NCBI RefSeq assembly: GCF_020921035.1
Contig: NC_063151.1
Span: 21,396,934 to 21,460,933 of the forward strand
Direction: 5' to 3'
Length of the DNA stretch: 64,000 nt
From: Rhodamnia argentea
Taxonomy: Eukaryota > Streptophyta > Magnoliopsida > Myrtales > Myrtaceae
Numbering within the stretch: the stretch's first letter is position 1; the number at the start of each line of letters is the position of its first letter. This document shows positions 617-25,180 of this stretch, one piece after another. Made by a program: the position numbers and the translations under genes. The notes below the pieces were generated by a model, which was not told the origin of the DNA, did not search any database, and was given only the letters and a program-made list of their open reading frames with translations.

Positions 617-955
617 CTAAAATCTCATATGATAGGGTGTGTAAACTGAAATGCAAGCACACATACATACGCATCCAGGGGAAGGCTTCGGGATGCTAGG
701 ATCTGATCCACCACCTGCATGCGAAGCGCAAACCCTGAAAAACCAAAGCAAGAATGGAACGTCCGCTAGTGTAAAACACAGAAAATGCATGAGAAACAAT
801 GACTGCTATGAAAAATTAAAGAGATTATTCAAAAGCGGATCGTCACCCGGGCATTTGGGGCGTGCCGAGACGATCATGAGCTGAAGGACCAGAACCATGA
901 ACATGCACAAACGTTGTGCGATCGAAGGAGACGGAGCAATAGCCTTGGGTGCCAT
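617..955 (-). CDS. Small secreted CEP-like peptide precursor SP1
   Basis: This is a two-exon gene. Exon 1 is 955-847 (ATG at 955, donor GTGACG) and exon 2 is 714-617 (acceptor CATGCAG, stop TAG), giving 68 residues with a phase-1 intron. Residues 1-31 form a signal peptide: a basic start MAPK, then a hydrophobic run around MFMVLVLQLMIVSA. The secreted part carries Cys35 and the core DPSIPKPSPGCVCMC, then a 15-residue tail containing one further Cys that the paralogs lack. The core aligns gap-free with CEP hormones (P-T-x-P-G-x-S-P-G-x-G-H) but ends GCVC instead of GxGH. The first exon matches SP2 closely. The upstream TATA region is degraded (TTACATAAGG at 1051-1060, minus-strand sense CCTTATGTAA), so expression may be altered. 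I do not recognise a named family. A signalling role is inference. Confidence 0.6.
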
Positions 956-1350
956 TTCTTCCCTCTTCTTTCTCTACTTTTTCACGCAGCCTCTTCTTCT
1001 TTTTCTTAAGATGTGCAGGAAGCTTGGTTTCTCAAGAGCTCGATTGCTGGTTACATAAGGAAATGATATGGGATTGATTGGTCCGTGGACCTTTGCTTGA
1101 TTAACGTGTAAGAGCAGGACGTAGAAATTAGATGTTTATGCCCAGTTTTTTGGGGTTTTGGGTTTTTCCTTCTGACAATGATATGCTGCCGTGTGTGACT
1201 ACAATTCATGAATTCACCAGAAGTTGCTGTCCGACGCGTATGGCATTGGCATCTTACAATTAATTTTACTCGCAGGTTACTATCAACTTAGATGTTTACT
1301 CTAAATTTGACCGGCATCCCATCCTGGCGACCCAACAATAATAATTTACT

Positions 1351-1660
1351 AGGTTAATTGTCCAAAAAGTATTAAACATGTTATACTGCGGCTAATTCAG
1401 TCATAAACTATCAATTTGATCTTAAGTCTTTCGACGATTTGCCAATTTAGTCGTAAACTTTTTCATTGTGCCAATTCAATCCTAAACGTTTTGAAATTTT
1501 GCCAATTTAGTCCAAAACTTATTATCTGGATAATTGGCGTAAAGGACGACACCGACAAATTGTCAAAAGGTTTAGGAATAAATTGGCAAAACTTTAAAAG
1601 GTTTAGAACTGAATTTGTCACTGTATAATACGTTTAGGACTGTTTGGACAATTTTCCCCA
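1351..1660. mobile_element. Non-autonomous inverted-repeat element (MITE), 310 bp
   Basis: The left end GGTTAATTGTCCAAAAAGT is the imperfect inverse of the right end around 1640-1660 (ACTGTTTGGACAATTTTCCC). The inside has repeated 'caatttagtc..aaac' motifs facing both ways. The 30-bp stretches pair along most of the element. There is no coding capacity. The same element is in unit 2 at 14825-15132. Confidence 0.65.
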
Positions 1661-1863
1661 TTGTTACTTTACAAATTCTTTCTGATTTTCCTCATCAATG
1701 GATATAACAAGGCTATGTGAAAATTATTCACAAAAGATTTGGACACGTGACCTTATATTTCGATATCATTAGAGATTTTGCGAAACTATTATCAAATGTT
1801 CTAAAAACTTAAATAAACGATATTTAGACATTCCGACATGTAAAGCAATAATTTGGGGAAGCA

Positions 1864-2700
1864 AGGGAAAAATTACCTACAATGTCCTAAGCCTATTGCA
1901 ATAGTGTGAATTCAGTGCTAAACCTATGTCTATGCCAATTCAGTCATAAACCTTTTACATTTGTACCAATTCGGTCCTTTCAACCAACTTTGGCTGGTCG
2001 ACGCTAATATTTTGATATATTTTTTTTCAATTTTTTTTCCGTTTTTTCCTTCTCCTTCCTCCTTTAACCAGTCACCGAGTGACCGGCTAGAGCCTCGGCC
2101 TCACTGTCGCCGGGCGAGGTCGCCCTTGCTTCCGGCCAATCGCCAATTCAGCAATCGGGTGAAGGAAGGAGGAGAAGAAAAAATAAACAAATAAATTGAT
2201 AAGTTATTAAAGTATCATTAGAAGTAATCATGTCAGCGCCACCTAGCCAAAGTTAGCCTTATATGAATCTATTCATAGATAAAAAAAATCAAGATCCTCG
2301 AGCCAATAATGACTGAGAAGATTGACTCAAGAACAAATTTCATGAGGGGCTCCATTGTAGAATTCAAACCTAACCATTAATTGTGGAGCGACGGGAATAG
2401 ATGGAACCTATGAATATGTAAGATTCTATTAAAAAATGAATCCTAATAATTCGTTAGGTGGGATGGAGGAACGAACTAGGGACTATTTCATTTATTCCGA
2501 GAATTCATGAGCTAACCCTACAACTAAAATAGATATTCAAAGAGTAAATACTCATCCGCGAAAGTTTACATTAGATTACTCAATCTTCTTTTACATTATT
2601 CAATCTTAGATGGATAGACTTAATTGGCATAAATACAAAATGTTTAGGATTGAATGGGCACAATCGCAATAGGTTTAAGATTTTTTTGGTAATTTCCTTG
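1864..2700. mobile_element. Non-autonomous inverted-repeat element, about 840 bp
   Basis: The left end (AAATTACCTACAATGTCCTA..) and right end (..TTAAGATTTTTTTGGTAATTTC) are imperfect inverted repeats. Both arms carry the 'cctattgcaat..gtgccaattcagt' signature seen in related elements at 9082, 22971 and 33119. A GC-rich core lies at 2080-2150. Unit 2 holds the same insertion at 15337-16185, so it predates the duplication. No transposase is present. Confidence 0.6.
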
Positions 2701-2704
2701 GGAA

Positions 2705-3040
2705 TCAAGAGATACGGGCAATCGCACGCATTTGGAAACCTTCATTACAGAACCTCGTCCATGATCGATTCGAAAGCACGGCCGTTCCTACGCTCTCCAG
2801 CTGCCATACGGGACCATATCCCGTGCTCGACGGGACCTCGACGTATAATCCCGATCCTTCTTGTAGCCTCCATTTTCGCCTCCGTCTCGAGGTGAGATTT
2901 TTAGGTTTTCGAGTTGTTTTCTTCCGTATGGCTGCCCAATGTGAACATGCTAACGATCTGTTGACATTTTGTCGGAGGGCTTGAACGTCAAAATGTCTGC
3001 TGAATCCTAACGAGATCGTGGAAAAGATAACGTCGTCCAA
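2705..3040 (-). other. Conserved open frame, unidentified (unit 1)
   Basis: A 111-codon frame reads MDDVIFSTIS at its start. It is kept open in both duplicates (112 codons at 16190-16528), but a 2-nt indel and stop-forming changes affect the alternative frame. It abuts the element at 1864-2700. I recognise no domain. It may be the remnant of a gene exon or a chance frame. Confidence that it is a working gene is low. Confidence 0.15.
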
Positions 3041-3778
3041 CCAACCTTTGTCTCCGATTGGTTGACTTCAATTTACTTATGGGAAATGATTATCCTATCT
3101 TTGTGTATTTCCTTCGAATCTACTATTCATCGTGTGACTTTTAGGCGGCGGCGGCGGCGGCCATCATCCAGTCGGATTAAAGCTCAAGATGTTCGAATGG
3201 GGCTGTTCGATCCCTGTGCTTTCATGGGAGGACATGAACTAATCCGCTTTGGGAGCACTAGCTTGTGCTTTCTCCTTTATTTTTTACTTTGCCGCACTGG
3301 AAAATTATTTTTCTGCAAGTCTCGGACAACCAAATGCTAGTACAATCTAAGCACACAATGGGAAGGTCCGACATTGAAATCATCCCCTCTCCGAACAGCG
3401 TTCTGTCCGGATGGTAGGGCAAACTAGATTAAAAGTGTGAATGATAATCATTATGTTTCCAAAAGTTATTTCTGGTGAGAAACATATTTTTCTATTTCAA
3501 TCCCGTTGATGAGTTTTTGAGCAAAGAAACGCTTTTGATAACGACACAAAATATCTATTTCAAGAACAAAAATTCATTTGATAACAGCAAAAAATTTCTA
3601 CGGTTGTCGGTCGCCGGGCCTTGAACAGCGAACGGCGAAAGGTGGCCATCGAACAGCAAACGGCGGACGGCGGACCATGTCCGTGGATCTATGGATGGTG
3701 GTCGGGACTAGCAGTTGGCGATAGGAACGCGAGAGAGAGGAAGACTACATGCGAGAGAGAGGGAATGAACGATGAGAA

Positions 3779-3838
3779 GAGTTCTTGTTTCTGTTTTTTT
3801 TTTTTTTTTTTTTTTGGTAAGTTGAGTTCTTGTTTCTG
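3779..3838. mobile_element. Micro-retroposon: poly(T)-GGTAAGTT with 15-bp TSD
   Basis: A 30-bp insert (3794-3823) of 22 T residues plus GGTAAGTT is flanked by identical copies of GAGTTCTTGTTTCTG (3779-3793 and 3824-3838). Unit 2 keeps the empty site near 17648-17662. This is the footprint of LINE-type target-primed insertion of an almost fully truncated, poly(A)-tailed transcript on the minus strand. It happened after the duplication. Confidence 0.7.
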
Positions 3839-5579
3839 TTTCTGTTCAAAAAATACAAAAGTAGAAATTTTTCATTTTTCATTTCAGTTCCAAACTTATT
3901 TCTGAATTAAAAATAAAAAATTACGTTACCAAATAAATTTATGTCCCAAACCTGTTCTCGAGAACAGAAAAATGGAAAAATAGATAAACAAAATGGTTAC
4001 ATACACGCCCAACGAGCCTTGATTACGTAGAGAGTAAGATGGAAAAGCTTGTGTGTCGATTGCATGTTTGAGTGCATGTTGGTCTGATCACTTTTGGAGC
4101 CCAAAAACATCCACGTCTTTTTCTTTTCCAGTAAAAGTGAATTAGTCTCGACCAGGATTTACCTCGCCACTAAGCGCACTAGACTCCTATGTTGTAATAC
4201 AACACGTAGAAACTAAACAGAATCTTACAAATTAAATCAATACGAAAAACTAAAAAAAAAAAAGATGAATGATAAAGAACACTAAAGAATATGTGATTCG
4301 ATCTGAATATCGATATATTCATCCATAGAGAGAATCAATAAGAACAATACACTATAATCGAAAAATAGGAGTAACAATCGGTAAATACGCTCGTATTTTC
4401 CGCACCTAGATTATATCCAAATTCTTAAGTATTTACAAATAAACAACTCTTAATTGGATATAAAAAAACACTGAACTCACGGAGAACAAATCGTGTATTG
4501 GGAATCCTCTAGTACGGCCAAAAAAGAACATCGTAGTTCGTCCTTTTTCTTTCCTTCGCGGCGCGATACCATGTGCCGAAAACAACCCACGATTTCTCCA
4601 CCATGCGCGGCTCGTCTTCCTTTTTCTTCGTCTTCTTTGTGCGATGAGAAGCGCGAAGAAACCACTGGCGGGTACAGTGCACTCTTAGAAACCCCTTGCC
4701 TTATTGGGTCGACGACTGTTCTTCTTGTTTTTGACCTGGGCCCACCACGAGAACTAATGTATATCTATTAAATCATGAGAGGCTGTTCTTTTGTCTTTTA
4801 GTGCCAAGGAAATCTGCGGCAGTTTTCCGTGCACGCTTAGGTCCCAATTCTTGATCCGTTAAAGATTTTCTTTTCTCAAATCAATTTAACAAACCAATAT
4901 ACATCCATAAACGACTTAAACTCGAGATATAAATTTGACAACCTTTGTGGTTCAGAACCCGCCGTCTTCTTAGCCTAAGTTTTGAAAAAATCAAAACTGC
5001 TGAGATGCAGAAAAGTTTGAAAGCTTGACATCAATCTTGCTCATTCACAGTTTTTAGTTGAATGATATTCATATCTGACACAGCGGTGCATGTCTGTGAA
5101 GCAAAGATACAAGAATTTGACCACTTCACAAGAACCCAGATCGTCATCCCGATGGGGGTATAAAATGAGTATTGAAGCTCACGAGGGCAAGTCGCCCGTG
5201 ATTTCACCAGATTCATGAGTTCATTTGGATCCATTTCGATGCTTCGCAGCCCTAGAAGAGTAGGCGGCAATGTAAATTTTTCACGAGTCCTTTCATATGG
5301 ACGACTTTGCATTCATGATCAATCGCAAATCACTCTCCAAATCACAAAAGCCGTGTCGATTGAAAACATAACCGATTTGCCGATCGAATTTATCGCCGTA
5401 GTCATTGCAAGCTTCATAGACCAATAATGAAGAAAGATATGCCGACTTGTTCTTTTGGCACTGAAAATCTTATTTCGACCTACCAACCGAACCTGGACCA
5501 AGAGTTGCTTGAATCTACTTTAACACATTTTTGTCATCCCTTCCCACGAGAAGTATAGAGTTCCAATCTTTTTTAATGT
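3839..5579. other. Spacer with conserved remnants, no clear gene
   Basis: This stretch is collinear with about 17663-19400. Two minus-strand frames are conserved in both units. The 62-codon frame at 4477-4665 (matched at 18300-18488) begins MVSSRFSSHKEDEEKGRRAA. The second, at 5031-5312 (matched at 18862-19134), contains LPPTLLGLRSIEMDPNELMN and resembles a degraded leucine-rich-repeat tail. Neither has a recognisable start context, domain or partner exon. I treat both as gene remnants or untranslated exons. Confidence 0.3.
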
Positions 5580-5594
5580 AAGTACCTCCTGCAA
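5580..5594 (-). promoter_or_regulatory. Conserved 3' element of SP2
   Basis: The minus strand reads TTGCAGGAGGTACTT, 104 nt after the SP2 stop. It is identical in SP2' and one base different in SP1. See the SP1 entry for the possible roles. Confidence 0.45.
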
Positions 5595-5697
5595 CACCAA
5601 CGAAGAGTTCATATTAGCACGGATTTTTACTGAGAACATGTCAATATAAGCAAGATGGATATAGCCGTTCGAATAAGAATTCCGTTAGAGTCTCCCA

Positions 5698-6032
5698 TTA
5701 TTGGGTGTATGAACTGAAACGTGAGTACATACATTTACATCCAGGGGAATGCTTCGGGTGGCTTGGATCAGATTGACCTGCATGCAAAGGGCAAACCATG
5801 AAGAGCTGAAAGATTTTTTCATTCTTTTTCCCTCGATGTTAAACAGTGGCGAACGGAACGTCCGCCAGTTTAAGTCGCAAAAAATGAATCAGAAGAAAAT
5901 AAAGAAATGAAAACGCCGTCACCCACCTGGGCATTCGGCTGCCGAGACGATTATGACCAGAAGGACCAGAACCATGAACGTGCACAAAAGTCGCGCGATC
6001 GAAGGAGAGGAAGCGATAGCCTTGGGTGCCAT
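5698..6032 (-). CDS. Small secreted CEP-like peptide precursor SP2
   Basis: Exon 1 is 6032-5927 (ATG in GAAATGGC, donor GTGGGT). Exon 2 is 5777-5698 (acceptor TGCATGCAG, stop TAA), giving 61 residues with a phase-1 intron. A signal peptide (residues 1 to about 32) has the core LLCTFMVLVLLVIIVSA. The mature part is short: Cys34, then DPSHPKHSPGCKCM, then a Ser/Tyr-rich tail YSRFSSYTQ. The PSHPKHSPG stretch matches the CEP signature PTxPGHSPG, but the CEP G-x-G-H end is replaced by G-C-K-C. A later donor 4 nt downstream would bring a stop codon, so the upstream GT is preferred. Exon 2 is identical base for base in SP2'. Function is unknown. A secreted, processed signal is the leading idea. Confidence 0.65.
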
Positions 6033-6143
6033 TTCTTTCCCCTTCTTCTTCTTCTTCTTCTCCTTTTTTTCCTCTTATCTTCCCTTCTTTTTCTCTTGAG
6101 ATGTGGAACGAACGTGGTTTCTCCAGAGCCCCATCGCCACTAC

Positions 6144-6153
6144 TTATATAAAG
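6144..6153 (-). promoter_or_regulatory. TATA box of SP2
   Basis: On the minus strand this reads CTTTATATAA, about 115 nt upstream of the SP2 start codon. It is conserved at 19960-19970 for SP2'. It is a good plant TATA box with a spacing that gives an 80-90 nt leader. Confidence 0.55.
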
Positions 6154-6448
6154 CAAATGATACGTGCTTGGTGCATGCACTTTGCTTGATTGACGAGTGA
6201 AAGTTGGGCGTGGAAAGTAGGGGTTTATGCCAATAAGTCCTTTGCCTATTGAATATGCTCTTTGAATTTCCAGAGTTTCTCAGCTGCCGTCCGTGTCTGC
6301 AAATTCAAGAGTTCGTGGGAAGTTGCTGTCCGACGTCTAGTCTTTCCGAGAGTTTTCATGGACTCAAACTTGGAACTCATTGTGTGGCCTCTATCCGATC
6401 ACGGGCATTTTCGTCCTTAAACTTGGGTATACGCATAGATTCTTGTAC

Positions 6449-6497
6449 ATCTATTTGTAATATATATATTTTTTTGGTCAAAATCTATTTGTAATAT
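6449..6497. mobile_element. Micro-retroposon with 15-bp TSD (shared by both units)
   Basis: Two copies of ATCTATTTGTAATAT (6449-6463, 6483-6497) flank a 19-bp insert ending in seven T plus GGTCAAA. Unit 2 has the same insertion at 20287-20333. This one therefore predates the 13.5-kb duplication, unlike those at 3779 and 20525. Confidence 0.6.
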
Positions 6498-6499
6498 TT

Positions 6500-8148
6500 C
6501 TTTACCACATAATATGATGTGTACAGTAGAGTCAAATCAATTCATATCTATGACTATTAATATTTTGTAATTATCAAAGAATGTATTATATATTATGTTG
6601 GAAAATATGATTGAATGAGATGAACAAAGAATCAGACTTTAAGACGTGATTGTATGAACCAAAAGGGATGAGGAAGTTTGGAGGATTTAATATGAGAGAG
6701 ACTTGAGTAAGCAAATATGAGAGTAGTATTCAAAATGCCTTCGCTAAGGCTTTACGCAAATTAAACACAAGCTTAATTATAAGCTTTTTACTACAAACTT
6801 ACAACTCTATCTCTCTCATATGCTAGGGCTTCTATAGCTTACTCTAAAAAAAAAAAAAAATACTACCATGCCACACATATTTATAGACATTTCAAGTTCC
6901 TACATCCACCACCCAGTTTCAATATGTAAGAAGCAAATTTGAACTTTTGTTCTTAACCGACTTTAACTAGTAAAAAAGAAACCATGTTCAGCCTACAAGT
7001 TTCGGTCAAGGAAGCAACTAATAATCAAGTCCAACTTGTCTTTCTCCTTTGACCACTTCATGCTCTGCACTTCACCGCCTCCTCAACTCAAGCATTGGCA
7101 CCTTCAGCGTGAAAAAGGGCAGCTGCCGCAATTGTTTTTCACCCCAAAGTCCAAGTTCATTTGAACTTTGCTTTCTTTTTCACTTTTCTTCCAAAATAAA
7201 TTTTATTATTTCCAACAGTAATAATACTCTCTTTAAGAAAGTACTTGCCCCACGACGTTGCTAATGGTTTCAGCAAATATCCTCTAGGATATAACAAAGT
7301 CTCAATGAGAATAACATATAACAATTTTGATATTTTTCCAGAATCTCTCAAGGAAAACAATTGGAAATAATAGTTGTGTATCTTTTGAGAAAAACGAAAA
7401 TTAAAAGTTAAGATTCTAAAAATGAACAGAGTCACTCAATATGTAATACTTGAAAGAAGACAACTTTTCACATCTCAAAAGGGCCATTCAATCACAATTA
7501 TTCGTGGCCAAAGAGCAGTTAATTTCGGACACACTACTTCGTGTCAGAAGAGCAGTTAATTTGGACACAGCTTTTCGTTGTCCGAAAAATAATTTATTCA
7601 GACACAACTCTTCATTGTCCGAAAAAATACCTTGTCCGAAAGATTGCAACTCTTGGACATAAATAGTTAATTATAATTCAAAAAATAAATTTAATAAAAT
7701 AACTGCATCTCCTACGTGTATAGTGGCACTGTTTCGTTGGGAGTTAACCATTTATTTTAATTATAATTTTGAAAAATAAAAAATAGATTGATCATTGATT
7801 AGTGCCAATGATTATTGGCGCCAAGTGCTAAGAGCACCAAAATCGCGCAGTCACACGCAGGTATAGCCTAGCCTACTCACCCATTTCTCTTTTTTTAGAA
7901 TACCATAATCGCATTCTAATTTATAAATTGACTTGCACTATCCCATCTCTCCTATATGGGACACAACAAAGGCACTTATGTTTGTTTTTTCAAACAAACT
8001 TCAGCTTATTAGACTCACACGGAATTTATATTAGAGATTTATCAAGTATTGGACGACATTAGATGTAAGGTCTACAATCGAGGTCATACAATGGCTCACT
8101 CGTTAGGCTGGCAACAACTTTAGCTGCTTCGACTGAAGTCGGTTCTGT

Positions 8149-8150
<2 letters not shown>
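6500..8150. other. Spacer; degenerate about 42-bp repeats at 7503-7660
   Basis: I see no gene. At about 7503-7660 (unit 2: 21361-21520) three to four degenerate copies of a roughly 42-bp motif occur. The motif is built from 'gagcagttaatt' and 'gtccgaaa/ttcggacac', so neighbouring copies contain inverted GTCCGAA/TTCGGAC halves. The rest is AT-rich with no recognisable features. Confidence 0.4.

Positions 8151-8151
<1 letters not shown>

Positions 8152-8202
<51 letters not shown>
8152..8202. repeat. (GA)n microsatellite, unit 1
   Basis: About 25 uninterrupted GA repeats. The unit 2 counterpart at 22007-22070 has about 32. It is a length-variable marker between the duplicates. Confidence 0.95.
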
Positions 8203-8204
<2 letters not shown>

Positions 8205-9081
8205 TTTATGTTTAAAGTTGGGTAATCTAAGTGTATCATATTTGGAAGGTTCAGTAAAGATAAATTTTATTTACTGGAAATGCAGAAAAATATAGTTTAA
8301 ACAATCCAATTTATGGTTAAAGTCGAGTTTGTTTCACGGAAAACTCAAAATTTGAAAAATATCTTCCGAACAATAATAGCTTATATCGCTTGAAAATGAA
8401 TTAATGCAAAAATATTTTCATCACCTATAAAAATGCTTCTTCATAAATTGTTATCCATAATGAAAACATTTTCTGTTGACTACTTGTAAAAAAGATATAA
8501 CAAATCACTTTTCAAAAAATATTTTCCAAATCTTAAATTTTCCGTGAAACAAAACGACCCTAATTGTAACTCCTAAACCCCATCCACCCTCTCCTTTGTC
8601 CTTTCTCTACGTCAGACAGTGATCCTGGAGTCAGGGTCTTCATTGAGAAGGTGGCCATGGAGTCATCTTTGGACTAATTTTTTCCTTCCAACCACAGATC
8701 TTGGAGGTGGTATCCACGTCAGACTGATGCAACCAATCTCCGAGGTTATTACATTAGTTGCTTGTTACCTTTGGTTCAAAGGACACTTTCTAACTAATCC
8801 ATCAAAGCAGACTTTGCATTTGACAATGCGTTGTTTGTTGTCAAGTTATACATGTCTTGAATCACTTGGACGTTGAATTATTCTAAAAATTGAATTTAAT
8901 ACACTTAACAACCGTGTTGGACACTCATCAAGATAGCCCTTTTACATTAGAAACCATTTTGTGTTGACTCTCAAGACATGCGTCTTCCAAGGCAGTTAAA
9001 GTATATATTAAATTAAAGAAGTGTATGGGGGACTAACCCTAGAAGTGTTGAAGATGGGTCCACGAAATGGTATAGTAAATC
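8203..9081. other. Spacer without recognisable gene
   Basis: AT-rich sequence collinear with 22071-22970. The 85-codon frame at 8619-8876 is not preserved in unit 2 and looks fortuitous. Nothing else stands out. Confidence 0.4.
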
Positions 9082-9491
9082 AAGGGAAAAATTATCAAAA
9101 AAATATTAAACCTGTTACAATTGTGTCAGTTTAGTCTTAAATTTTTTTTTAACAATTGAGTTTTAAACATTTTACAATTATGTCAATTCAGTTCATTTGG
9201 TTGATCGGCATTGACGTGGCAAATTTGTAATAATATTTTAATATTTTTTGAAATTTATTAATTATTTTTTTTATTTTTTAATAATTTTTTGTGTCTTTTT
9301 TGGCCTTTTCTTTTTTTAGGGTTTGGGCCGATAGCCCTACCGGCCACCGACGACCTCCGCCGACCCCTAGGCAAGGGCTTGCGAGTCTTCATTAGCTGCT
9401 GGCGAGGGCTTGCAAAAGAAAAAAAAAAGATAGAAAAAAGCTATTAAACAAAATTAAAAAGTTTGAAAAATACTAAAATATTATTAAAAAT
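9082..9491. mobile_element. Truncated inverted-repeat element
   Basis: The left arm starts with AAGGGAAAAATTATCAAAAAA and has the 'cctgttacaattgtgtcagtttagtc' signature of the family at 33119-33716. It is followed by a GC-rich core at 9320-9415. The right arm is missing and the sequence stops after the AT-rich stretch near 9491. Unit 2 has the same truncated copy at about 22971-23355, so the loss is older than the duplication. Confidence 0.55.
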
Positions 9492-10561
9492 TAGCCTCAT
9501 GAACACCGGTTGATCTCCCTCCATGTGGAAAGGAAGCACATGGTCGTTTTCTGAGGACACAGCCATCGAATGTCGAGGAGATTTACGGATGCTACGGTTG
9601 AGTTTCCTTTCTTCACAAGAGGCGTTGAATTGTCTAGAGAGATTCGACACTACCTCCATCTGCGATTGTTTCGATTGCTCTTAATTTATCCACAATCCAC
9701 GCAGGCAATTGAATTAATGGAGCGATTCAATACTACCTCCATCGGCTGCATCCAACATCGTTTTTTTTTTTTTTTAATCATAGGATAGCTGTTAAGTTTT
9801 AATTTAATAGCTTAAGCCTATATCGAGAATGAGAGAGGTTGGGGGCGAGTAGGGGTGGCGAGATAAGGGCAAAATGGGAAATAGACAAATGAGGCAAAAA
9901 AAGGAGAAAGAAAAAATGGGGGGGGGCGGAAGGCTCAATCGATCGGGGCCGTCCATTTAGTCATCGATCGATGAATCCAAATCTTAGGAGGTCAACCCAA
10001 AAAAAAAAAATGCGGAGGATCTCTATTCACCAATCATATTTTATATATTTTAATACGTCCCCTCAATGAAGCCTTGTTTGATAACTTTTTAGTTTACTTC
10101 GCGTAATGATGGAAGATCAATGAGTGGGTTAAATTGGCGATGTACGGAATCGAACTCGAGGCCTTCGACTCTAAAGCCGGTCTAAAATGTCCGCGCGCGA
10201 GCGCAACTATTTATTCCCAAAATTAAGACCGATTCGGACTCTTCACGAAAGGCAATAACTAAAGTTGATAAGGGATCGATCGACTTCTTCCATCGGGCGA
10301 GGAAATAGACCCATTTCTCCTGATCAACAAAATCCAACAACAGGAAGAAAACGTATCGACTTTCGTAATTGCGGGCGGATTACCATTTTACTTAATGGTT
10401 TCTTTTATTTTCGATACAAAATATTGAGTAGGACAACGTTCATAAAAGGAAAGAAAAACACGTCAGTCTTCGATCAATCATGACCGAAGCAACCAGCTAC
10501 TAATTATACTGATCCAAGAACGACTTAACACCTGACGCCGATCCCTCCATTGTTTGAGTAC
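9492..10561. other. Spacer, no clear gene
   Basis: Collinear with 23356-24428. It contains short frames around 9570-9788 and 10265-10483 that are partly kept in unit 2 but carry no recognisable domain. A poly(T) run lies at about 9761-9775 and a G-rich run at about 9918. No supported gene. Confidence 0.35.
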
Positions 10562-10575
10562 AAGTACCTCCTGCA
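10562..10575 (-). promoter_or_regulatory. Conserved 3' element of SP3
   Basis: The minus strand reads CTGCAGGAGGTACTT (bases 10562-10575 cover all but the first), about 88 nt after the SP3 stop. It is shared with all other family members although the flanking 3' sequence differs from SP1 and SP2. Confidence 0.45.
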
Positions 10576-10662
10576 GTGACAGTAAACAGCTTACTAATTA
10601 TACTGAACAGTCATTTTGAATCAGAGGCATGTCAATATCTCATCCGGAATATGGAGGATATG

Positions 10663-11295
10663 TTAGTAAAACATACATGTACATCCAGGGGACGGGTTTG
10701 GGTGGTCTGGATCTGCTCCACCTGCAAACCATTGCAAACAAAGGATCAAATCGTTGGATCGGTGTGCCTCGTCAAAACGGCAAGGCAAACGCTTGCGGAT
10801 TCCCAGCGAAAGTTGCTCACACATGACCTGTCCGGGGGTGCAAGCAAAGTAGAGAATTATAGTACAGATCGAGTGGGATTTGGGACATTCGGGGAAATGA
10901 TTTTGGTATTTGTCTGAATCTAACACATCTTCGGAATCCATGGAACGTGCTGAGGGATAAGACGACGACTACATCGATCGTTTCGAATTTCCATTTTTGC
11001 TCGATACTTGGTAGCATACCCGACGATGTGAAATTTTCGTAGAGAAATTGGTACAAGAAGATGGTTTCGCTCGTGTCGGCGGAGCAGAATGTGAGATGTG
11101 TTGGCGAAAAATTGCACGAGCCACGTAGTTGAGATTAATCCATATGATAATACACGGAGAAGTAAAGAGAATGAGAAGCTCACCTGCGCCACAATGGCCT
11201 GTTGCAGAGACGATGATCGAATGAAGGATGACCACCATGAGAAAGCACAGAAACTTCACACTCCAATCAGATGAACTCAAATCCTTGGACGCCAT
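10663..11295 (-). CDS. Small secreted CEP-like peptide precursor SP3
   Basis: Exon 1 is 11295-11184 (ATG in GAAATGGC, donor GTGAGC). Exon 2 is 10721-10663 (acceptor TTTGCAG, stop TAA). The intron is about 460 bp, phase 1, and the product is 56 residues. The signal peptide (residues 1-31) has a hydrophobic core FLCFLMVVILHSIIVSA. The mature part is about 25 residues with Cys35 and the terminal core DPDHPNPSPGCTCMFY. SP3 lacks the tail found in SP1 and SP2 and stops two residues after CxCM. Spacing, intron phase and the core show common descent with SP1 and SP2 despite a quite different N-terminal exon (MASKDLSSSDW). No named family is recognised. Confidence 0.65.
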
Positions 11296-11380: not shown

Positions 11381-11399
11381 AGTCGAGACAGCAATCTTC

Positions 11400-14007: not shown

Positions 14008-14008
14008 C

Positions 14009-15132: not shown

Positions 15133-15336
15133 GTTGTTACTTTACAAATTCCTTCTGATTTTCCTCGTGAATGCATACAACAAGGCTACGTGAAAATTAT
15201 TCACGAAAGATTTGGACACGTGACCTTATATTCTGATATCATTAGAGATTTTGCATAACTATTATCAAATGTTCTAAAAGCTTAATAGAAACGATATTTA
15301 GACATTCCAACATGTAAAGCAACAATATGGGGAAGC

Positions 15337-16185
15337 AAGGGAAAAATTGCCTACAATATCATAAGCCTATTGCAATTGTGTGAATTCAGTGCTAAACCTA
15401 TGTTTATGTCAATTTAGTCATAAACTTTTTACATTTGTACCAATTCGGTCCTTTCAGCCAACTTTGGCTGCTCGATGCTAACGTAGCAATTTTCAATAAT
15501 ATTTTAATATATTTTTTCCAATTTTTTTCCTTTTTTTTCTTCTCCTTCCTCCCTCGACCATTCACCGAGTGACCAGCTGGAGCTTCAGCCTCACTGTCGC
15601 TAGGCGAGGTCGCCCCCTTGCCTCTAGCCGGTCGCCAATTTCGCAATCGGCTGAAGGAAGGAGGAGAAGATAAAATAAATAAATTGTTAATTTATTAAAG
15701 TATATTAGAAGTTATCATGCCAGCGCCACCCGGCCAAAGTTAGCCCTATATGAATCTATTCATAGAAAAAAAAATCAAGATCCTCGAGCCAATAATGACC
15801 GAGAAGATTGACTCAAGAACAAATTTCATAAGGGGCTCCGTTGTAGAATTCAAATCTAACCATTAATTGCGAAGCGACGGGACAGATGGAACCTATGAAT
15901 ATGTAAGATTCTATTAAAAAATGAATCCTAATAATTCGTTAGGTGGGATGGAGGAACGAATCGGGGACCATTTCATTTATTCTGAAAATTCATGAGCTAA
16001 CCCTACAACTAAAATAGATATTCAAAGCGTAAATATTCACCCGCAAAATTTTACATTAGATTACTCAATCTTCTTTTGCATTAATCAATATTGGCCAAAT
16101 TGACTTAATTAGCATAAATACAAAAGGTTTATGACCGAATGGGCACAATCGCAATAGGTTTAAGATTTTTTTGGTAATTTCTCCA
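15337..16185. mobile_element. Inverted-repeat element, copy of 1864-2700
   Basis: Duplicate of the unit 1 element, with the same terminal signatures and GC-rich core (about 15560-15640). The following minus-strand frame 16190-16528 is the counterpart of 2705-3040. Confidence 0.6.
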
Positions 16186-16189
16186 GGAA

Positions 16190-16528
16190 TCAAGCGATAT
16201 GGGCAATCGCACGCATTTGGAAACCTTCATTACGGAACCTCGTCCATGATCGATTCGAAAGCACGGCCGTTCCTACGCTCTCTAGCTGCCATACGGGACC
16301 ATATCTCGTGCTCAACGGGACCTCTCGACGTATAATCCCGATCCTTCTTGTAGCCTCCATTTTTGGCCTCCGTCTCGAGGTGAGATTTGTAGGTTTTCGA
16401 GTTGTTTTCTTCTGTATGGCTGCCTGATGTGAACATGCTAACGATCTGTTGACATTTTGTCTGACGGTTTGAACGTCAAAATGTCTCCTGAATCCAACCG
16501 AGATTGTGGAAAAGATAACGTCGTCCAA
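16190..16528 (-). other. Conserved open frame, unidentified (unit 2)
   Basis: A 112-codon frame starting MDDVIFSTISVGF, homologous to 2705-3040. A second frame at 16230-16436 is open here but has a stop and a 2-nt shift in unit 1. No domain is recognised. Confidence 0.15.
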
Positions 16529-16699
16529 CCAACCTTTGTCTCCGATTAGTTGACTTCAGTTTACTTATGGGAAATGATTATCCTATCTTTGTGTATTTCC
16601 TTTGAATCTGTTATTCATCGTGTGACTTTTAGACGGCGCCGGCCATCATCCAGTTGGAGTAAAGCTCAAGATCCACGAATGGGGCTGTTCGATCCCTGT

Positions 16700-17053
16700 T
16701 CGATATTTTAACAATATCGGAAAAGGCGTTACTTTACGACGGCTTTGCAACGTTTGATCTAATTTGTTTCATTATTAATCCTCTCATTCATTTGTCATTA
16801 AAGTGAATATTCAAATCACGATGAAAACATACCAAAAATAATAAATTCTCTCTTTTCTTTCCATTTATTTGTCGTGTTTAAATACGACGTTATTGTTCAT
16901 ATTCCCTCTATCTATTCTGTGCGGAGTAAAGGGAAAGATTTGTGTAGCCTGTCGCACCGAAATATCGTACTCCGAGAGGAGTCAGACATTTCGATTTATT
17001 TTTTATATTTTTTCTTTGGCAACATTAGGTCATGTCAAGTTCTGCTTAACTCC
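16700..17053. other. About 355 bp present only in unit 2
   Basis: Unit 1 goes directly from GATCCCTGT to GCTTTCATGGGAGG (about 3205-3230). Unit 2 has about 355 extra bases between the same flanks. I see no clear terminal repeats or target duplication, so deletion from unit 1 is as likely as insertion in unit 2. No gene is seen. Confidence 0.6.
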
Positions 17054-19401
17054 GCTCATTTCATGGGAGGACATGAACTAATCCGCTTTTGTAGCACTAG
17101 CTTGTGCTTTCTCCTTTATTTTTTACTTTGCCGCACTTGAAAATTATTTTTCTGCTAGTCTCGGACAACCAAATGCTAGTACAATCTAGGCACACAATGG
17201 GAAGGTCCGACATTGAAATCATCCCCACTCCGAACAGCGTTCTGTCCGGATGGTATGGCAAACTAGATTGAGAGTGCGAATGATAATCATTCTGTTTTCA
17301 AAAACTATTTTTGACTAGAAATATATTTTTCTATTTCAATTCTCTGGATGAGTTTTTGAGCAAAGAAACGCATCTGATAACGACACAAAATTTCTATTTC
17401 GGGAATAGAAATTCGTTTGATAACTATATATAATTTTTACGGTTGTCGGCCTTCGGACCTCAAATGGCGAACGGCGAAAGGTGGCCATCGAACGGCAAAC
17501 GGCGGACGGTGGACCAGCGAACAGTGGACGGCAGATGGCACACCGCGTATGTGGACCAGCGAATGGTGGTCGGGACTAGCAGCTAGCGATAGGGACACGA
17601 GAGAGAGGAAGATTGCATGCGAGAGAGAGGGAGTGAGCGATGGAAAAAGTTCTTATTTCTGTTTATGTTCAAAAAATATAAAAGTACAAAATTTTCATTT
17701 TTCATTTCAGTTCCAAACCTATTTCTGGATTAAAAATAAAAAATTACGTTACCAAATGGATTTATGTTCCAAACTTGTTCTTGAGAATAGAAAAATAGAA
17801 AAACAGAGAAACAAAATGGTTACATGCGCGCCCAACGAACCTTGATCATGTAGAGAGTGACATGGAGAAGCTCGTACGGCGATTACATGTTTGAGTCCAT
17901 GCTGGTCTGATCACTTTTGGAGCCCAAAAACATCCACGTCTTTTTCTTTTCCAGTAAAAGTGAATGTGTCTCGACCAGGATTTACCCCGCCACCAAGCTC
18001 GCTGGACCCTTCTATTGTAATATAACTCACGAAAACTAATCGGGACATTACAAATTAAGCCAATACGAAAAGCCCAAAAAAATAACAAGAAATGATAAAA
18101 TGCACTAGAAATTATGTGATTTGGTCTGAATATTGATACTTACATCCACAGAGAGAGCCGACAAGAATAATCCACTATAATCGGAGAATCGAAGTTACAA
18201 TCGCTAAATAGGCTCGTATTTCCCACCCCTAAATTATATTCAAATCCCTAAGTGTTTACAAATAAGTAACTCTTAATTGGATATAAAAAAACACTAAACT
18301 CACGAAGAACAAATCGTGTATTCGAAATCCTCTAGTACGGCCAAAAAAGAACATCGTAGTTCGTCCTTGTTCTTTCCTTCGCGGCGCGATACTATGTGCC
18401 GAAGAAAACCCAAGATTTCTCCACCGTGCGCGGCTCGTCTTCCTTTTTCTTCGTCTTCTTTGTGCGATGAGAAGCGCGAAGAAACCACTGGCGGCTACAG
18501 TGCACTCTTAGACCTTCTGTTTTATAGGGTCAACAACTTTTCTTCTTGTTTTTGACCTGGCCCACCAGAACAACTAATGTACATATATTAAATAATGAGA
18601 GTCTGTTCTTTTGTCTTTAAGTGCCAAGGAAATCGGCGGAAGTTTTCCGTGCACGCGTTAACTCCCGATTCTTGATCCGTCAAAGATTTTCTTTTCCCAA
18701 ATCAATTTAACAAACCAATATACATTCATAAATGATTTAAATTCGAGACACAAATTTAACACCTTTGGTGGTTCGGAACCCATCGTCTTCTTAGCCTAAG
18801 TTTTGAAAAAATCAAAACTGCTGAGATGCAGAAAAGTTTGAAAGCTTGACATCAATCTTGCTCATTCATAGTTTTTAGTTGAACGATATTCATATCTGAC
18901 ATAGCGGCGCATATCTATGAAGTAAAAGATACAAGAATCCGACCACTTCACAAGAAGCAAGATCGTCATCTCGATGGGGGTGTGAAATGAGTCTTGAAGC
19001 TCACGAGGGCAAGTCGCCCATGATTTCAACAGATTCATGAGTTCATTTGGATCCATTTCGATGCTTCGCAACCCCAGAAGAGTAGGCGGAAATGTAAATT
19101 TGTCACAAGTCCTTTCATATGGACGACTTTGCATTCATGATCAATCGCAAATCACTCTCCAAATCATAAAAGCCATGTCGATTGAAAACATAACCGATTT
19201 GCCGATCGAATTTATCGCCATAGTCATTGCAAGCTTCATAGACCAATAATGAAGAAGGATATGCTGACTTGTTCTTCCGGCACTGAAAATCTTATTTCGA
19301 CCTACCAACCGAACCTGGACCAAGAGTTGCTTGAATCTACTTTAACACATTTTTGTCATCCCTTCCCACGGAAAGTAGAGAGTTCCAATCTTTTTTTATG
19401 C
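17054..19401. other. Spacer with conserved remnants, unit 2
   Basis: Counterpart of about 3215-5579. It contains the conserved minus-strand frames 18300-18488 and 18862-19134 described under unit 1 and the empty site (near 17648) of the 3779 micro-retroposon. No supported gene. Confidence 0.3.
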
Positions 19402-19416
19402 AAGTACCTCCTGCAA
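19402..19416 (-). promoter_or_regulatory. Conserved 3' element of SP2'
   Basis: The minus strand reads TTGCAGGAGGTACTT, 104 nt after the stop codon, identical to the SP2 element. Confidence 0.45.
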
Positions 19417-19519
19417 CACCAACGAAGAGTTCATATTAGCACGGACTTTGCCTGAGAACATGTCAATATAAGCAAGATGGATATAGCCGTTCGAATAAGA
19501 ATTCCGTTATAGTCTCCCA

Positions 19520-19853
19520 TTATTGGGTGTATGAACTGAAACGTGAGTACATACATTTACATCCAGGGGAATGCTTCGGGTGGCTTGGATCAGATTGACC
19601 TGCATGCAAAGTGCAAACCATGAAGAGCTGAAAGATTTTTTCATTCTTTTCCCTCGATGTTAAACAATGGCGCACAGAACGCCCGCCAGTTTCAGTGGCA
19701 AAGAATGAATCAGAAGAAAATAAAGAAATGAAAACGCGGTCACCCACCCGGGCATTCGGCTGCCGAGACGATTATGACATGAAGGACCAGAACCATGAAC
19801 ATACACAAAAGTTGCGCGATCGAAGGAGAGGAAGCGATAGCCTTAGGTGCCAT
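19520..19853 (-). CDS. Small secreted CEP-like peptide precursor SP2' (duplicate)
   Basis: Exon 1 is 19853-19748 (donor GTGGGT) and exon 2 is 19599-19520 (stop TAA), giving 61 residues with the same phase-1 structure as SP2. Compared with SP2, exon 1 has about seven base changes, giving three amino-acid changes all in the signal-peptide region (R14Q, T18M, L25H). The 80-nt exon 2, which encodes the putative mature peptide DPSHPKHSPGCKCM and its tail, is identical. That fits constraint on the mature part, although 80 nt is short and gene conversion would look the same. Its TATA box is intact at 19960-19970. Confidence 0.65.
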
Positions 19854-19960
19854 TTCTTTCCCCTTCTTCTTCTTCTTCTCCTCTTTTTCCTCTTATCTTC
19901 CCTTCTTTTTCTCTTGAGATGTGGAACGAACGTGGTTTCTCCAGAGCCCCATCGCCACTA

Positions 19961-19970
19961 CTTATATAAA
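19961..19970 (-). promoter_or_regulatory. TATA box of SP2'
   Basis: The minus strand reads TTTATATAAG, about 110 nt upstream of the SP2' ATG, in the same context as SP2. Confidence 0.55.
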
Positions 19971-20286
19971 GCAAATGATACGTGCTTGGTGCATGCACTT
20001 TGCTTGATTGACGAATGAAAGTTGGGCGTGGAAAGTAGGGGTTTATGCCAATAAGTCTTTTGCCTATTAACAGAGTTTCTCAGCCGCCGTCCGTGTCTGC
20101 AAATTCAAGAGTTCGTGGGAAGTTGCCGTCCGATGTCTAGTCTTTCCGAGAGTTTTCATTGGACTCAAACTTGGAACTCATTGTGTGGCCTCTATCCAAT
20201 CACGCGCATTGTTGTGGGAAAATTGTCCGAAAAGTGCCACGCACATTTTCGTCCTTAAACTTGGGTATACACATAGATTCTTGTAC

Positions 20287-20333
20287 ATCTATTTGTAATA
20301 TATATTTTTTTGGTCGAAATCTATTTGTAATAT
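20287..20333. mobile_element. Micro-retroposon, copy of 6449-6497
   Basis: Same 15-bp target duplication ATCTATTTGTAATAT (20287-20301, 20319-20333) around T7-GGTCGA. Inherited by duplication. Confidence 0.6.
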
Positions 20334-20524
20334 TTCTTTACCACATAATATGATGTGTATAGTAGAGTCAAATCAATTCATATCTATGAATATTAATATT
20401 TTGTAATTATCAAAGAATATATTATATATTATGTTGGAAAATATAATCGAATGAGATAAACAAAGAATCAGACTTTGAGGTGTGATTGTAAGAACTAAAA
20501 GGGATGCGGAAGTTTGGAGGATTT

Positions 20525-20578
20525 AATGTGAGAGAGAATTTTTTTTTTTTTTTTTTTTGGTCCAAATGTGAGAGAGAA
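20525..20578. mobile_element. Micro-retroposon: poly(T)-GGTCCA with 14-bp TSD
   Basis: AATGTGAGAGAGAA is repeated exactly at 20525-20538 and 20565-20578 around 20 T residues plus GGTCCA. Unit 1 shows the empty site (about 6688-6702). This is a unit-2-specific insertion after the duplication, of the same type as the one at 3779-3838. Confidence 0.7.
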
Positions 20579-22003
20579 GTTGAGTAAGCAAATATGAGAG
20601 TAGTATTCAAAATGCATTTGCTAAGGCTTTACACAAAGTAAACACAAGTTTAACTATAAGCTTTTTAGTACAAACTTACAACTCTCTCTCATATGCAAGG
20701 GCTTCTATAGCTTACTCTGAAAAAAAAAAAAAACTACTATGCCACACATATTTATAGACATTTCAAGCGCCTACATCCACTGCCTAGCTTCAATATGTAA
20801 GAAGCAAATTTGAACTTTTGTTCTTAACCGACTTTAACTAGTCAAAAAGAAATCATGTTCAGCCTACAAGTTTCGGTCAAGGAAGCAACTAATAATCAAG
20901 TCCAACTTGTCTTTCTCCTTTGACCACTTCATGCTCTGCACTTCACTGCCTCAACTCAAGCATTGGGCTTCAGCGTGAAAAAAAGGAAGCAGCCGCAATT
21001 GTTTTTCACCCCAAAGTCCAAGTTCGCTTTCTTTGTTCCTTTTCTTCCAAAATAACTTTTATTATTTCCAATAGTGATAATACTATCTTTAAGAAATTAT
21101 TTGTCCCACGACATTATTAATGGTTTCGGCAAATATCCTCCAAGAATAACAAAGTCTCAATGAGAATAACATATAGCAATTCTGATATTTTTTCAGAATC
21201 TCTCAAGGGAAACAATTGGAAATAATGGCTGTGTATCTTTTCAGAAAAAAGAAAATTAAAAGTTAATATTCTAAAAATAAACAGAGTTACTCAATATGTA
21301 ATACTTGAGAGAAGACAACTTTTCATGCCTCAAAAGTGTCATTCGATCACAATTATTCGCGGCCAAAGAGCAGTTAATTTCGGACACACTACTTCGTGTC
21401 CGAAGAGCATTTAATTTGGACACAGCTCTTTGTTGTCCGAAAAATAATTTATTTAGACACAACTCTTCATTGTCTGAAAAACTGCCTTGTCTGAAAGATT
21501 GCAACTCTTGGACATAAACAGTTAATTATAATTCGAAAAATAAATTTAATAAAATAACTGCAACTCCTACGTGTACAGTCTCACCATTTCGTTGGGAATC
21601 AACCATTTATTTTAATTATAATTTTGAAAAATAAAAAACAAATTGATCATCGATTAGTGCCAATGATTATTGGTGCCAAGTGCTAAGAGTGCTAAAATCG
21701 TGCAATCACACACTGGTATAGCCTAGCCTACTCACCCATTTCTCTTTTTTTAGAATACCATAATAGCATTCTAATTTATAAATTGACTTGCACTCTCTCA
21801 TCTCTCCTGTGTGGGACACAACAAAGGCACTTATGTTTGTTTTTTCAAACAAACTTCAACATATTAGACTCGCGCAGAATGTATATTAGAGATTTATCAA
21901 GTATTGGACGACTTTAGATGTAAGGTCTACAATCGAGGTCATACGATGGCTCACTCGTTAGGCTGGCAACAACTTTAGCTGCTTCGACTGAAGTCGGTTC
22001 TAT

Positions 22004-22006
<3 letters not shown>
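20579..22006. other. Spacer; degenerate about 42-bp repeats at 21361-21520
   Basis: Counterpart of 6700-8150, with the same GTCCGAA/TTCGGAC repeat cluster. No gene seen. Confidence 0.4.

Positions 22007-22070
<64 letters not shown>
22007..22070. repeat. (GA)n microsatellite, unit 2
   Basis: About 32 GA repeats, versus about 25 in unit 1. Confidence 0.95.
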
Positions 22071-22073
<3 letters not shown>

Positions 22074-22970
22074 AGTTTATGTTTAAAGTTGGGTAATCCA
22101 AGTGCATCATATTTGGAAGGTTCAGTAAAGATAAATTTTATTTACTGGAAATGCAGAAAAATATAGTTTAAACAATCCAATTTACGTTTAAAGTCGTGTT
22201 TGTTTCATAAAAAACTCAAAATTTGAAAAATATCTTCCGAACAATCATTTCTTATATCGCTTGAAAATGAATTAATGCACAAATATTTTTATCACTGACG
22301 AAAATGCTTATTCATAAATTGTTATCCATAACGAACACATTTGCCGTTCACTACTTGTAAAAAAGATATAACTAATCACTTTTCGAAAAATATTTTTTAA
22401 ATCTTAATTTTTTCACAAAACAAAGGCACCCTATTCTAACTCCTGAACCCCACCTACCCTCCCCTGTGTCCTTTCTCTACGTCAGAGAGTGATCCTGGAA
22501 TCAGGGTCTTCGCTGAGAAGGCGGCCATGGAGTCATCTTTGGACTAATTTTTTCCTTCCAACCACAGATCTTGAGGTGGTATCCACGTCAGACTGATGCA
22601 ACCAATCTCCGAGGTTATTATATTAGTTGCTCGTTACCTTTGGTTCAAAGGACACTTTCTAGAATCCATCAAAGCAAACTTTGCATTTGACTATGCGTTG
22701 TTTGTTGTCAAGTTATACATGCCTTGAATGACTTGGACGTTGAATTATTCTAAAAATTGAATTTAACAACCGTGTTGGACACTCGTCAAGGTAGCCAGTC
22801 CTTCTACATTAGAAACCATATTGTGTTGACTCTCAAGACATGCAAACGTTTTCCAAGGCAGTTAAAGTATATATTAAATTAAAGAAGCGTATGGGGGACA
22901 AACCCTAAAAGTGTTGACGATGGGTCCACGAAGTCTTTAAAATTAAATGGTATAATAAATCAAGGGAAAA

Positions 22971-23355
22971 ATTATCAAAAAAAATATTAAACCTGTTACA
23001 ATCGTGTCAATTTAATCTTAATTTTTTTTATCAATTGAGTTTTAAAAATTTTGCAATTGTGTCAATTCAGTTCATTTGACCGATCGGCGTTGACGTGAAA
23101 ATTTTTTAATAATATTTTAATATTTTTTGAAATTATTTATTTATTTTTTAATAATTTTTTGTACCTTTTTGGCCTTTTCTTTTTTTGGGGTTTGGGCCAG
23201 CAGCCCTACCGGCCACCGACGACCTCTGCCGACCCTTGGGTGAGGGCCTGCGAGTCCTCACCTACCACTGGCGAGGGCTTGCAAAAGTTATATATATATA
23301 AGCTATTAAACAAAATTAAAAAGTTTAAAAAATATTAAAATAATATTAAAAATTA
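22971..23355. mobile_element. Truncated inverted-repeat element, copy of 9082-9491
   Basis: Left arm plus GC-rich core (23190-23280), with the right arm missing exactly as in unit 1. The flanking stretches 22071-22970 and 23356-24428 hold no supported gene. Confidence 0.55.
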
Positions 23356-24428
23356 GTCTCATGAACACCCGTTGATCTCCCTCCATGTGGAAAGGAAGCA
23401 CATGGTCGTTTTCCAAGGACACGGCCATTGGATGTCGAGGAGATTTACAGATGCTACAGTTGCGTTTCCTTTCTCCACAAGACGCGCCGAATTCTCCAAA
23501 AAGATTCAACACTACCTCCATCTGCGATTGTTTCGATTGCTCTTACTTTGTCCACAGTCCACGCAGACAATTGAATTAATGGAGCGATTCAATACTACCT
23601 CTATCGGCTGCATCCAGCATTTTTTTTTTTTTTGGATCATAGGATAGCTGTTAAGTTTTAATTTAATAGCTTAAGCTTATATCGAGAATGAGAGAGGTTG
23701 GGGGCGAGTAGGGGTGGCTGAGACAAAGGCAAAATGGGAAATATACAAATGAGGCAAAATAGGAGAAAGAAAAAATGGTGCGGAGGGGTGGGGGGGAGGG
23801 AGGGCGGAAGGCTCAATCGATCTTGGCCGTCCATTTAGTCATCAGTCGATAAATCCAAATCTTAGGAGGTCAACAAAAAAAAAAAAAATGCAGAGGATCT
23901 CTATTCACCAATCATACTTTATATATTTTAATACGTCCCCTCAATGAAGCCTCGTTTGATAACTTTTTAGTTTACTTCGCGTAATGATGGAAGATCAATG
24001 AGTGGGTTAAATTGGTGATGTACGGAATCGAACTCGAGGCCTTCGACTCCGAAGCCGGTCTAAAATGTCCGCGCAAGCGCAACTATTTATTCCAAAAATT
24101 AAGACCGATTCGGACCACCCTTCACGAAAGGCAATAACTAAAGTTGATAAGGGATCGATCGACTTCTTCCATCGGGCGAGGAAAGAGACCCATTTCTCCC
24201 AATCAACAGGAAGAAAACGTATCGACTTTGGTAATTGCGGGCGGATTACCATTTTACTTAATGGTTTCTTTTATTTTCGATACAAAATATTGAGTAGGAC
24301 ATCGTTCATAAAAGAAAAAGAAAAACACGTCAATCTTCGATCAATCATGACCAAAGTAACCAGCTACTAATTATACTGATCCGAGAATGACTCAACACCT
24401 GAAGCCGATCCCTCCATTGTTTGAGTAC

Positions 24429-24442
24429 AAGTACCTCCTGCA
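24429..24442 (-). promoter_or_regulatory. Conserved 3' element of SP3'
   Basis: The minus strand reads TGCAGGAGGTACTT, 88 nt after the stop codon, matching SP3 and the other family members. Confidence 0.45.
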
Positions 24443-24529
24443 GTGACAGTAAACAGCTTACTAATTATACTGAACAGTCATTTTGAATCAGAGGCATGTC
24501 AATATCTCATCCGGAATGTGAAGGATATG

Positions 24530-25180
24530 TTAGTAAAACATACATGTACATCCGGGGGACTGGTTTGGGTCTCTTGGATCTGCTGTACTTCCACTTCCAC
24601 CTGCTAACCAATGCAAACGAAGGATCAAATGGTTGGATCGGTGTGCCTGGTCAAACGGCGAGGCAAACGCTTGCGGATTCCCAGCGAAAGGTGCTCACGC
24701 ATGACCCGTCCGGGGGTGCAAGCAAAGTAGAGAATTATAGTACAGATCGAGTGGGATTTGGGACATTCTGGGAAATGATTTTGGTATTTGTCTGACTCAA
24801 ACATATCTTCGGAATCCATGGAATGTGCTTAGGGATAAGATGACGACTACATCGATCGTTACGAATTTCCATTTTTGCCCGGTATTTGGTAGCATACCCA
24901 ACGGTGCAAAATTTTCATAGACAAATCAGTATAAGAAGATGGTTTCGCTCGTGTCGACGGTGCAGAATGTGAGATGTGTCAGCGAAAAATTGGCCACGTA
25001 GTTGAGATTAATCCATATGATAATAATACACGGAGAAGTAAAGAGAATGAGAAGCTCACTTTCGCCACAATCGCCTCCTGGGCCTATTGCGGAGACGATG
25101 ATCGAATGAAGGATGACCACCATAAGAAAGCACAGAAACTTCACACCCCAATCAGATGAACTCAAATCCTTGGACGCCAT
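24530..25180 (-). CDS. Small secreted CEP-like peptide precursor SP3' (duplicate)
   Basis: Exon 1 is 25180-25060 (donor GTGAGC) and exon 2 is 24600-24530 (acceptor GTTAGCAG, stop TAA), giving 63 residues with a phase-1 intron. The signal peptide is nearly the same as in SP3. The region just after it differs strongly: IGPGGDCGE replaces the SP3 sequence, and exon 2 has gained 12 nt giving GGSGSTADPRDPNQ before the unchanged SPGCTCMFY end. So the two SP3 copies have diverged in the linker and first half of the mature part while the terminal core is fixed. The reading frame is intact through all indels, which argues that both copies are or were functional. Confidence 0.65.

Follow-up and report, generated by a model that had tools for sequence, protein, structure and literature searches.

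What five short minus-strand loci in a 64,000-nucleotide stretch of the Rhodamnia argentea genome (NC_063151.1, positions 21,396,934 to 21,460,933 of the forward strand, referred to below as the window) encode, where their products end and whether they stand alone are the questions addressed here. The loci, SP1, SP2, SP3, SP2' and SP3', had been described in a first-pass annotation as a cluster of five secreted-peptide genes of an unrecognised family, each made up of a signal-peptide exon, a phase-1 intron and a very small exon 2 that ends in SPGCxCM. Judged from their sequences, they belong to a genuine, rapidly evolving family of secreted-peptide genes with micro-exons, which is larger than first noted and has another C-terminus than the one proposed.

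Gene clusters in the window and on contig C9

At each of the five loci an ATG, a hydrophobic signal sequence, a phase-1 intron and a tiny exon 2 were found again at the positions first given, and the reading into SPGCxCM was recovered as well. Exon 1 of SP1 (847..955, minus strand like all exons and introns of these loci) encodes the signal peptide and the first Cys and closes with the phase-1 donor CGG|GTGACG, and exon 2 (667..714) is entered through the acceptor GCATGCAG|GTG and ends in GGSDPSIPKPSPGCV plus the T of a split stop codon. In SP2, exon 1 (5927..6032, donor CAG|GTGGGT) was followed by exon 2 at 5733..5777, ending in QSDPSHPKHSPGCK, and in SP3, exon 1 (11184..11295, donor CAG|GTGAGC) was followed by exon 2 at 10677..10721, GGADPDHPNPSPGCT. 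The duplicate SP2' has its exons at 19748..19853 and 19555..19599, and the duplicate SP3' at 25060..25180 (donor AAA|GTGAGC) and 24544..24600, the latter ending in SGSGSTADPRDPNQSPGCT. The DNA pattern CCTGGATGNNNATGTATGT, with three mismatches or fewer allowed, had five matches in the window, each at one of the five loci, and in 100 shuffles a mean of 0.29 and a maximum of 3 matches were obtained.

The five loci exist, but they represent three genes plus one tandem duplication rather than five genes. Copy 1 (1164..14598, no strand assigned), with SP2 and SP3, and copy 2 (14638..28395), with SP2' and SP3', are 89-91% identical and form a repeat unit of about 13.8 kb. Because one event copied both genes, the independent evidence in the window comes from three genes only. 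The possibility that the exons are the start of larger genes was rejected: stop-to-stop frames that overlap the duplicated block reach at most 157 aa, and two scanned frames of the block gave no Pfam match.

No further copies were detected in the 40 kb before or the 20 kb after the window, and a genome-wide DNA search with SP1 as the query returned SP1, SP2 and SP2' only. When the SP3 precursor was searched against the whole genome in six frames, an exon-2 match on contig C9 (E = 1.5) came up, around which the gene SP4 was read, with a signal exon, a phase-1 intron and an exon 2 ending in SPGCR and a plain TGA. At the DNA level, exon 2 of SP4 matched exon 2 of SP3 with 88% identity across 49 bp (E = 1.5e-11), and the clusters on C9 and on C2, the contig of the window, are therefore homologous. 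Stepwise searches and reading added seven more C9 genes (SP5, SP6, SP9, SP10, SP11, SP12 and SP13), giving eight intact relatives and two relics, all on the minus strand at about 24.35-24.48 Mb. The relics, SP7 and SP8, are exon-2 remnants near intact genes (L018 1501-1548, minus strand, and C9 24363698-24363772); SP7 has lost its stop and no exon 1 was seen for it, and SP8 is degenerate. Genome-wide, at least 13 intact genes were found in the two clusters. The search lists comprised the best candidates only and the member counts are lower bounds; C9 was read whole between 24.30 and 24.46 Mb and, beyond, only at loci around matches, and the cluster may be larger.

PGC followed by 0-1 codon and a stop occurred six times in 160 kb of C9, counted on both strands, and all six occurrences belong to the family. 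Outside the two clusters, the precursor searches gave, among the matches listed, only weak ones on C8 (E = 0.49) and C3 (E = 0.99). Both were rejected, as neither strand of the sequence examined, 3,072 bp on C8 and 901 bp on C3, has PGC codons; the C3 piece extends only about 250 bp past the match, and a more distant exon may exist there. A genome DNA pattern with AGY and ATG had no match, and it was unable to match the window loci, where Ser is TCC.

In SP11 (C9 24412337-24424056), intron 1 is 11.6 kb long and holds an element with two direct repeats of about 1.42 kb, 99.2% identical, resembling a young long terminal repeat retrotransposon; SP12, a near-copy of SP11, has an intron of 802 bp without that element. 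SP13 (C9 24468188-24469006), with an SP10-like signal exon and an SP11-like exon 2, looks like a recombinant.

The probable second intron and the C-terminus

The sequence T|GTATGT, a strong plant splice donor, was found right after SPGCx at all five window loci, with the conserved acceptor TGCAG|GAGG[TC]ACTT located 106-146 bp downstream in each of them. In SP1 the resulting intron 2 (521..666, 146 bp) lies inside the TGA stop, between the donor TAT|GTATGT and the acceptor TGTTGCAG|GAGG, with exon 3 starting from 520. The interval is 144 bp in SP2 (5589..5732, donor AAT|GTATGT, exon 3 from 5588) and SP2' (19411..19554, exon 3 from 19410), and 106 bp in SP3 (10571..10676, exon 3 from 10570) and SP3' (24438..24543, exon 3 from 24437). 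Joining donor and acceptor generates T|GA, a stop codon split by the intron. The two-exon architecture first described is right as to the signal exon, the phase-1 intron and the tiny exon 2, but a second intron is probable.

Spliced in this way, the window precursors end in SPGCV, SPGCK or SPGCT and have 52 (SP1), 50 (SP2), 52 (SP3), 50 (SP2') and 59 (SP3') residues; the lengths of 68, 61, 56, 61 and 63 residues reported earlier were reproduced if the frame continues past SPGC. The protein tails past SPGCx disagree among SP1, SP2 and SP3, and the CM of SPGCxCM, with its tail, is most likely read-through into intron 2 of the window genes. The ending conserved in all 13 precursors is [S/N]PGC plus 0 or 1 residue and then a stop, which replaces SPGCxCM as the family signature; the search pattern ending in CM that had been proposed would miss all eight C9 relatives. 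The corrected signature (a Cys beside the signal peptide, a phase-1 intron and [S/N]PGC(x) with a stop) enables searching other plants, a use for which SPGCxCM would fail.

In six of the eight C9 genes the stop falls right at the position of the split-stop codon, one residue past PGC, and in SP9 and SP10 one codon earlier, straight after PGC. A candidate intron of 132 bp in SP5 and 140 bp in SP6 was recognised just behind the stop (TGATGCAT|GTAAGC ... GCAG|). SP4 is without intron 2, and its 3' end aligned with spliced SP5 at a score of 49, reached in none of 1000 shuffles (shuffle maximum 29), and with unspliced SP5 at a score of 15, matched by 182 of 1000 shuffles. For SP6, the spliced form gave a score of 32, weaker than that of SP5 and reached in 1 of 1000 shuffles, and the unspliced form a score of 13, reached in 559 of 1000. 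The second intron is believed because the 3' end of the intron-less SP4 matches spliced, not unspliced, SP5. We infer that intron 2 of the window genes and the SP5/SP6 intron would be one ancestral intron with a shifted donor.

Two other readings of this region were rejected. A second exon-2 frame, which on joining with exon 3 yields PLDVxEVL in SP1-3, is open in 12 of the 13 genes but broken in SP4, and by eye it carries many amino-acid changes between genes. The use of GAG, a weaker splice acceptor, would give SPGCxC-T-[YC] tails that are not conserved and conflict with the C9 stops.

Precursors and known peptide families

The 13 precursors comprise 50-63 residues and their coding exons 44-145 bp; the splice architecture was present in all 11 genes checked together and also in SP12 and SP13. 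A hydrophobic core of 12 residues with a mean hydropathy of 2.67-3.43, as expected of an N-terminal signal sequence, was detected in every precursor. Behind it, all 13 have two Cys 14-20 residues apart, the first on the likely cleavage site or within a few residues of it and the second at the C-terminus, separated by a mostly Gly/Pro-rich stretch. SP6 ends in two Cys, having a third at the very end, and its spacing was counted from Cys38 to Cys59.

No Pfam family was matched at E <= 10 by any of the 10 precursors searched (all but SP2', SP3' and SP12), a PDB search with the mature region gave no match, and none of the papers listed in searches of an open-access library, which also covered two-cysteine secreted peptides and Eucalyptus and Myrtaceae peptide families, describes this family. 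The designation of the window cluster as unrecognised is in agreement with these results, but the family extends beyond the cluster, to C9.

The SP precursors resemble CEPs, especially group II CEP13-15, in being small and secreted, with a C-terminal peptide, a Pro-rich core and PSPG near the end, and the canonical CEP core spacing, P-x2-P-x2-SPG, is the same as in the SP peptides. They could accordingly be divergent CEP/PIP-like linear peptides, with a CEPR/HAESA-class receptor recognising hydroxylated prolines of DPxxPxPSPG and only a secondary part for the cysteines, a reading regarded as rather unlikely. The group II ending VPSPG(V/I)GH (PMC12494267) can be placed beside the [P]SPGCx of SP, both motifs being C-terminal in small secreted precursors. 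CEPs, however, end in SPG(I/V)GH (PMC4526919), whereas GxGH was found in none of the 13 SP precursors, all of which end in PGC plus 0-1 residue, with Cys as the last conserved residue. The 17 tomato CEP genes are without introns (PMC9562649), an intronless gene being a common CEP feature and not a strict definition, whereas SP genes have one or two introns, the phase-1 intron being present in 13/13. Moreover, the genome has CEP-like matches of its own on C1, C2, C9 and C11, away from both clusters, as detected with a query built from the CEP consensus.

CTNIP/SCREW peptides are likewise small and secreted, with two conserved Cys in the CTNIP active region that are required for HSL3 binding (PMC9191895). 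The published filter for CTNIP candidates called for two Cys at a distance of 9-11 residues (PMC9191895), in contrast to the spacing of 14-20 in SP, where the second Cys is the last or second-last residue. The CTNIP string was absent from all 13 precursors. The stretch DPSHPKHSPG of SP2 resembles the PSY1 core. When the precursors were compared with the PSY motif, DYXXXX[AP]NXXHXP (PMC11641228), no DY was found in any of the 13, so they are without an Asp-Tyr sulfation site. The IDA gene family is described as intronless with an SGPS motif, and the IDA/IDL and PIP/PIPL core S(G,A,V)PS (PMC4526919) was absent from 13/13 precursors. SP precursors share with PIP/PIPL and IDA/IDL the short secreted form and a C-terminal Pro-containing ligand motif, but are without SGPS and GxGH. 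In cysteine-rich peptides the mature part has at least four Cys and there are several disulfides; behind the hydrophobic core, 12 of the 13 SP precursors have two Cys and SP6 has three. On the motifs of the published descriptions, the predicted SP family is set apart and matches no known plant peptide family compared, and it may still work in CEP or CTNIP fashion.

Constraint, promoters and proposed mode of action

In none of the 13 genes does a stop interrupt the proposed frame, in exon 1 or in exon 2. In exon 1 the alternative frames are broken in 13/13 (+1) and 8/13 (+2) genes. For the PGC codons, 45 pairwise comparisons of 10 representatives (SP2', SP3' and SP12 being left out as recent copies) revealed 51 synonymous and no non-synonymous differences. 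The preceding residue is Ser encoded by TCC in 5/5 C2 genes, Ser encoded by AGC in 7/8 C9 genes and Asn (AAC) in SP10. The constraint that can be seen lies in a small number of invariant residues within a precursor that otherwise changes fast.

For promoter analysis, TTGAC[CT] was used as the consensus of the W-box. Seven of the eight C9 genes (all but SP4) have such a box no farther than 150 bp from the ATG, versus 16% of background windows of that length. In SP5, SP6, SP9, SP10 and SP13 a W-box is located 62-63 bp upstream of the ATG and a TATA box 44 bp upstream. Four of the five window genes have a TATA-like box 82-118 bp upstream of the ATG, such as the TATATA at 6145..6150 (minus strand), 118 bp upstream of the SP2 ATG, and none was detected within 400 bp upstream of the ATG of SP1 or SP4. 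The C9 W-boxes give a weak hint of stress or immune induction of the C9 genes.

The explanation favoured, with moderate confidence, is a multigene family of secreted two-Cys precursors, most likely acting as disulfide-closed extracellular signals via a receptor kinase. The signal peptide would be removed near the first of the two conserved Cys, leaving a predicted mature product of about 18-28 residues, rich in Gly and Pro. One disulfide would then join the two Cys into a small ring, with a PSPG turn beside the C-terminal Cys. A free C-terminus may matter, as in other plant peptide ligands, which the near-exact C-terminal placement suggests, and the predicted peptide would be an extracellular signal perceived by a receptor kinase. 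The more specific proposal of undescribed plant peptide hormones, with single-disulfide rings of about 20 residues running from the cleavage-site Cys to PGC, encoded by micro-exon genes with a split stop in one branch and perceived by a receptor in stress signalling, is put forward only tentatively. The two-Cys ring, if true, adds a simple, synthesisable class of ligands.

Several observations weigh against this explanation. In exon 2 the alternative frames are often open (+1 broken in 1/13, +2 in 6/13), and it is the conserved residues of exon 2 that make the case for it. The PGC count is in part biased, since some members were found via the PGC motif or exon-2 similarity; SP9, SP10 and SP12 were found via exon 1, and SP9 and SP10 had PGC at the expected place. 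Of the 55 pairs among 11 genes (all but SP12 and SP13), 52 yielded an estimate of the whole-gene ratio of non-synonymous to synonymous substitution rates (dN/dS). The median was 0.64, with 42 estimates below 1 and 10 at 1 or higher; values of 0.31 for SP2/SP2', 0.56 for SP5/SP6, 0.93 for SP3/SP3' and 1.30 for SP9/SP10 were obtained. Since these ratios are weakly below or near 1, constraint rests on few residues. Signal cleavage was assessed on hydropathy and the presence of small residues rather than with SignalP. The disulfide is a guess that builds on the conservation of the two Cys, and there are more Cys inside the signal core or ahead of it. None of the five window genes, nor SP4, has a W-box within 150 bp of its ATG, and those of C9 are partly shared through descent among related copies.

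Tandem, fast-evolving clusters and W-boxes near the start of seven of the eight C9 genes are also compatible with small defence peptides acting directly on microbes, without a plant receptor. This alternative appears improbable, as the mature products predicted here, short and rich in Gly and Pro with two Cys, differ from the usual plant defensins, which are cysteine-rich. It is very improbable that the loci are relics, that is, decaying genes, transcribed or not, that remain untranslated: the 10 pairs with dN/dS of 1 or more and the two relics among the C9 copies would fit, but frames and splice sites are intact in 13/13 genes and the PGC codons lack non-synonymous differences. The slimmest chance is given to the two-exon model with peptides ending in SPGCxCM and a short variable tail, for which the frame is open and CxCM is present at all five window loci, but the tails past M differ among SP1, SP2 and SP3, TATGT belongs to the donor, and the C9 genes stop at the spliced-stop codon or one codon before it.

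Plant genomes are thought to conceal many secreted-peptide genes with exons below gene-finder size, and the SP family is a concrete case of such easily missed genes, with tiny coding exons and a stop apparently split by an intron in one branch.

Other features of the window were also recorded. Each copy of the tandem block holds a fragment of the plastid rpl16 group II intron (Rfam RF04334; 2291-2337 and 15777-15823, plus strand), probably a plastid DNA insertion later duplicated along with the block. Just past the block, a RAM2-like glycerol-3-phosphate acyltransferase gene was identified at 29832-31941 (plus strand), with the Pfam domains HAD_RAM2_N and Acyltransferase in two adjacent frames. 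The region 37707-38216 consists of two 255-bp tandem copies with 94% identity.

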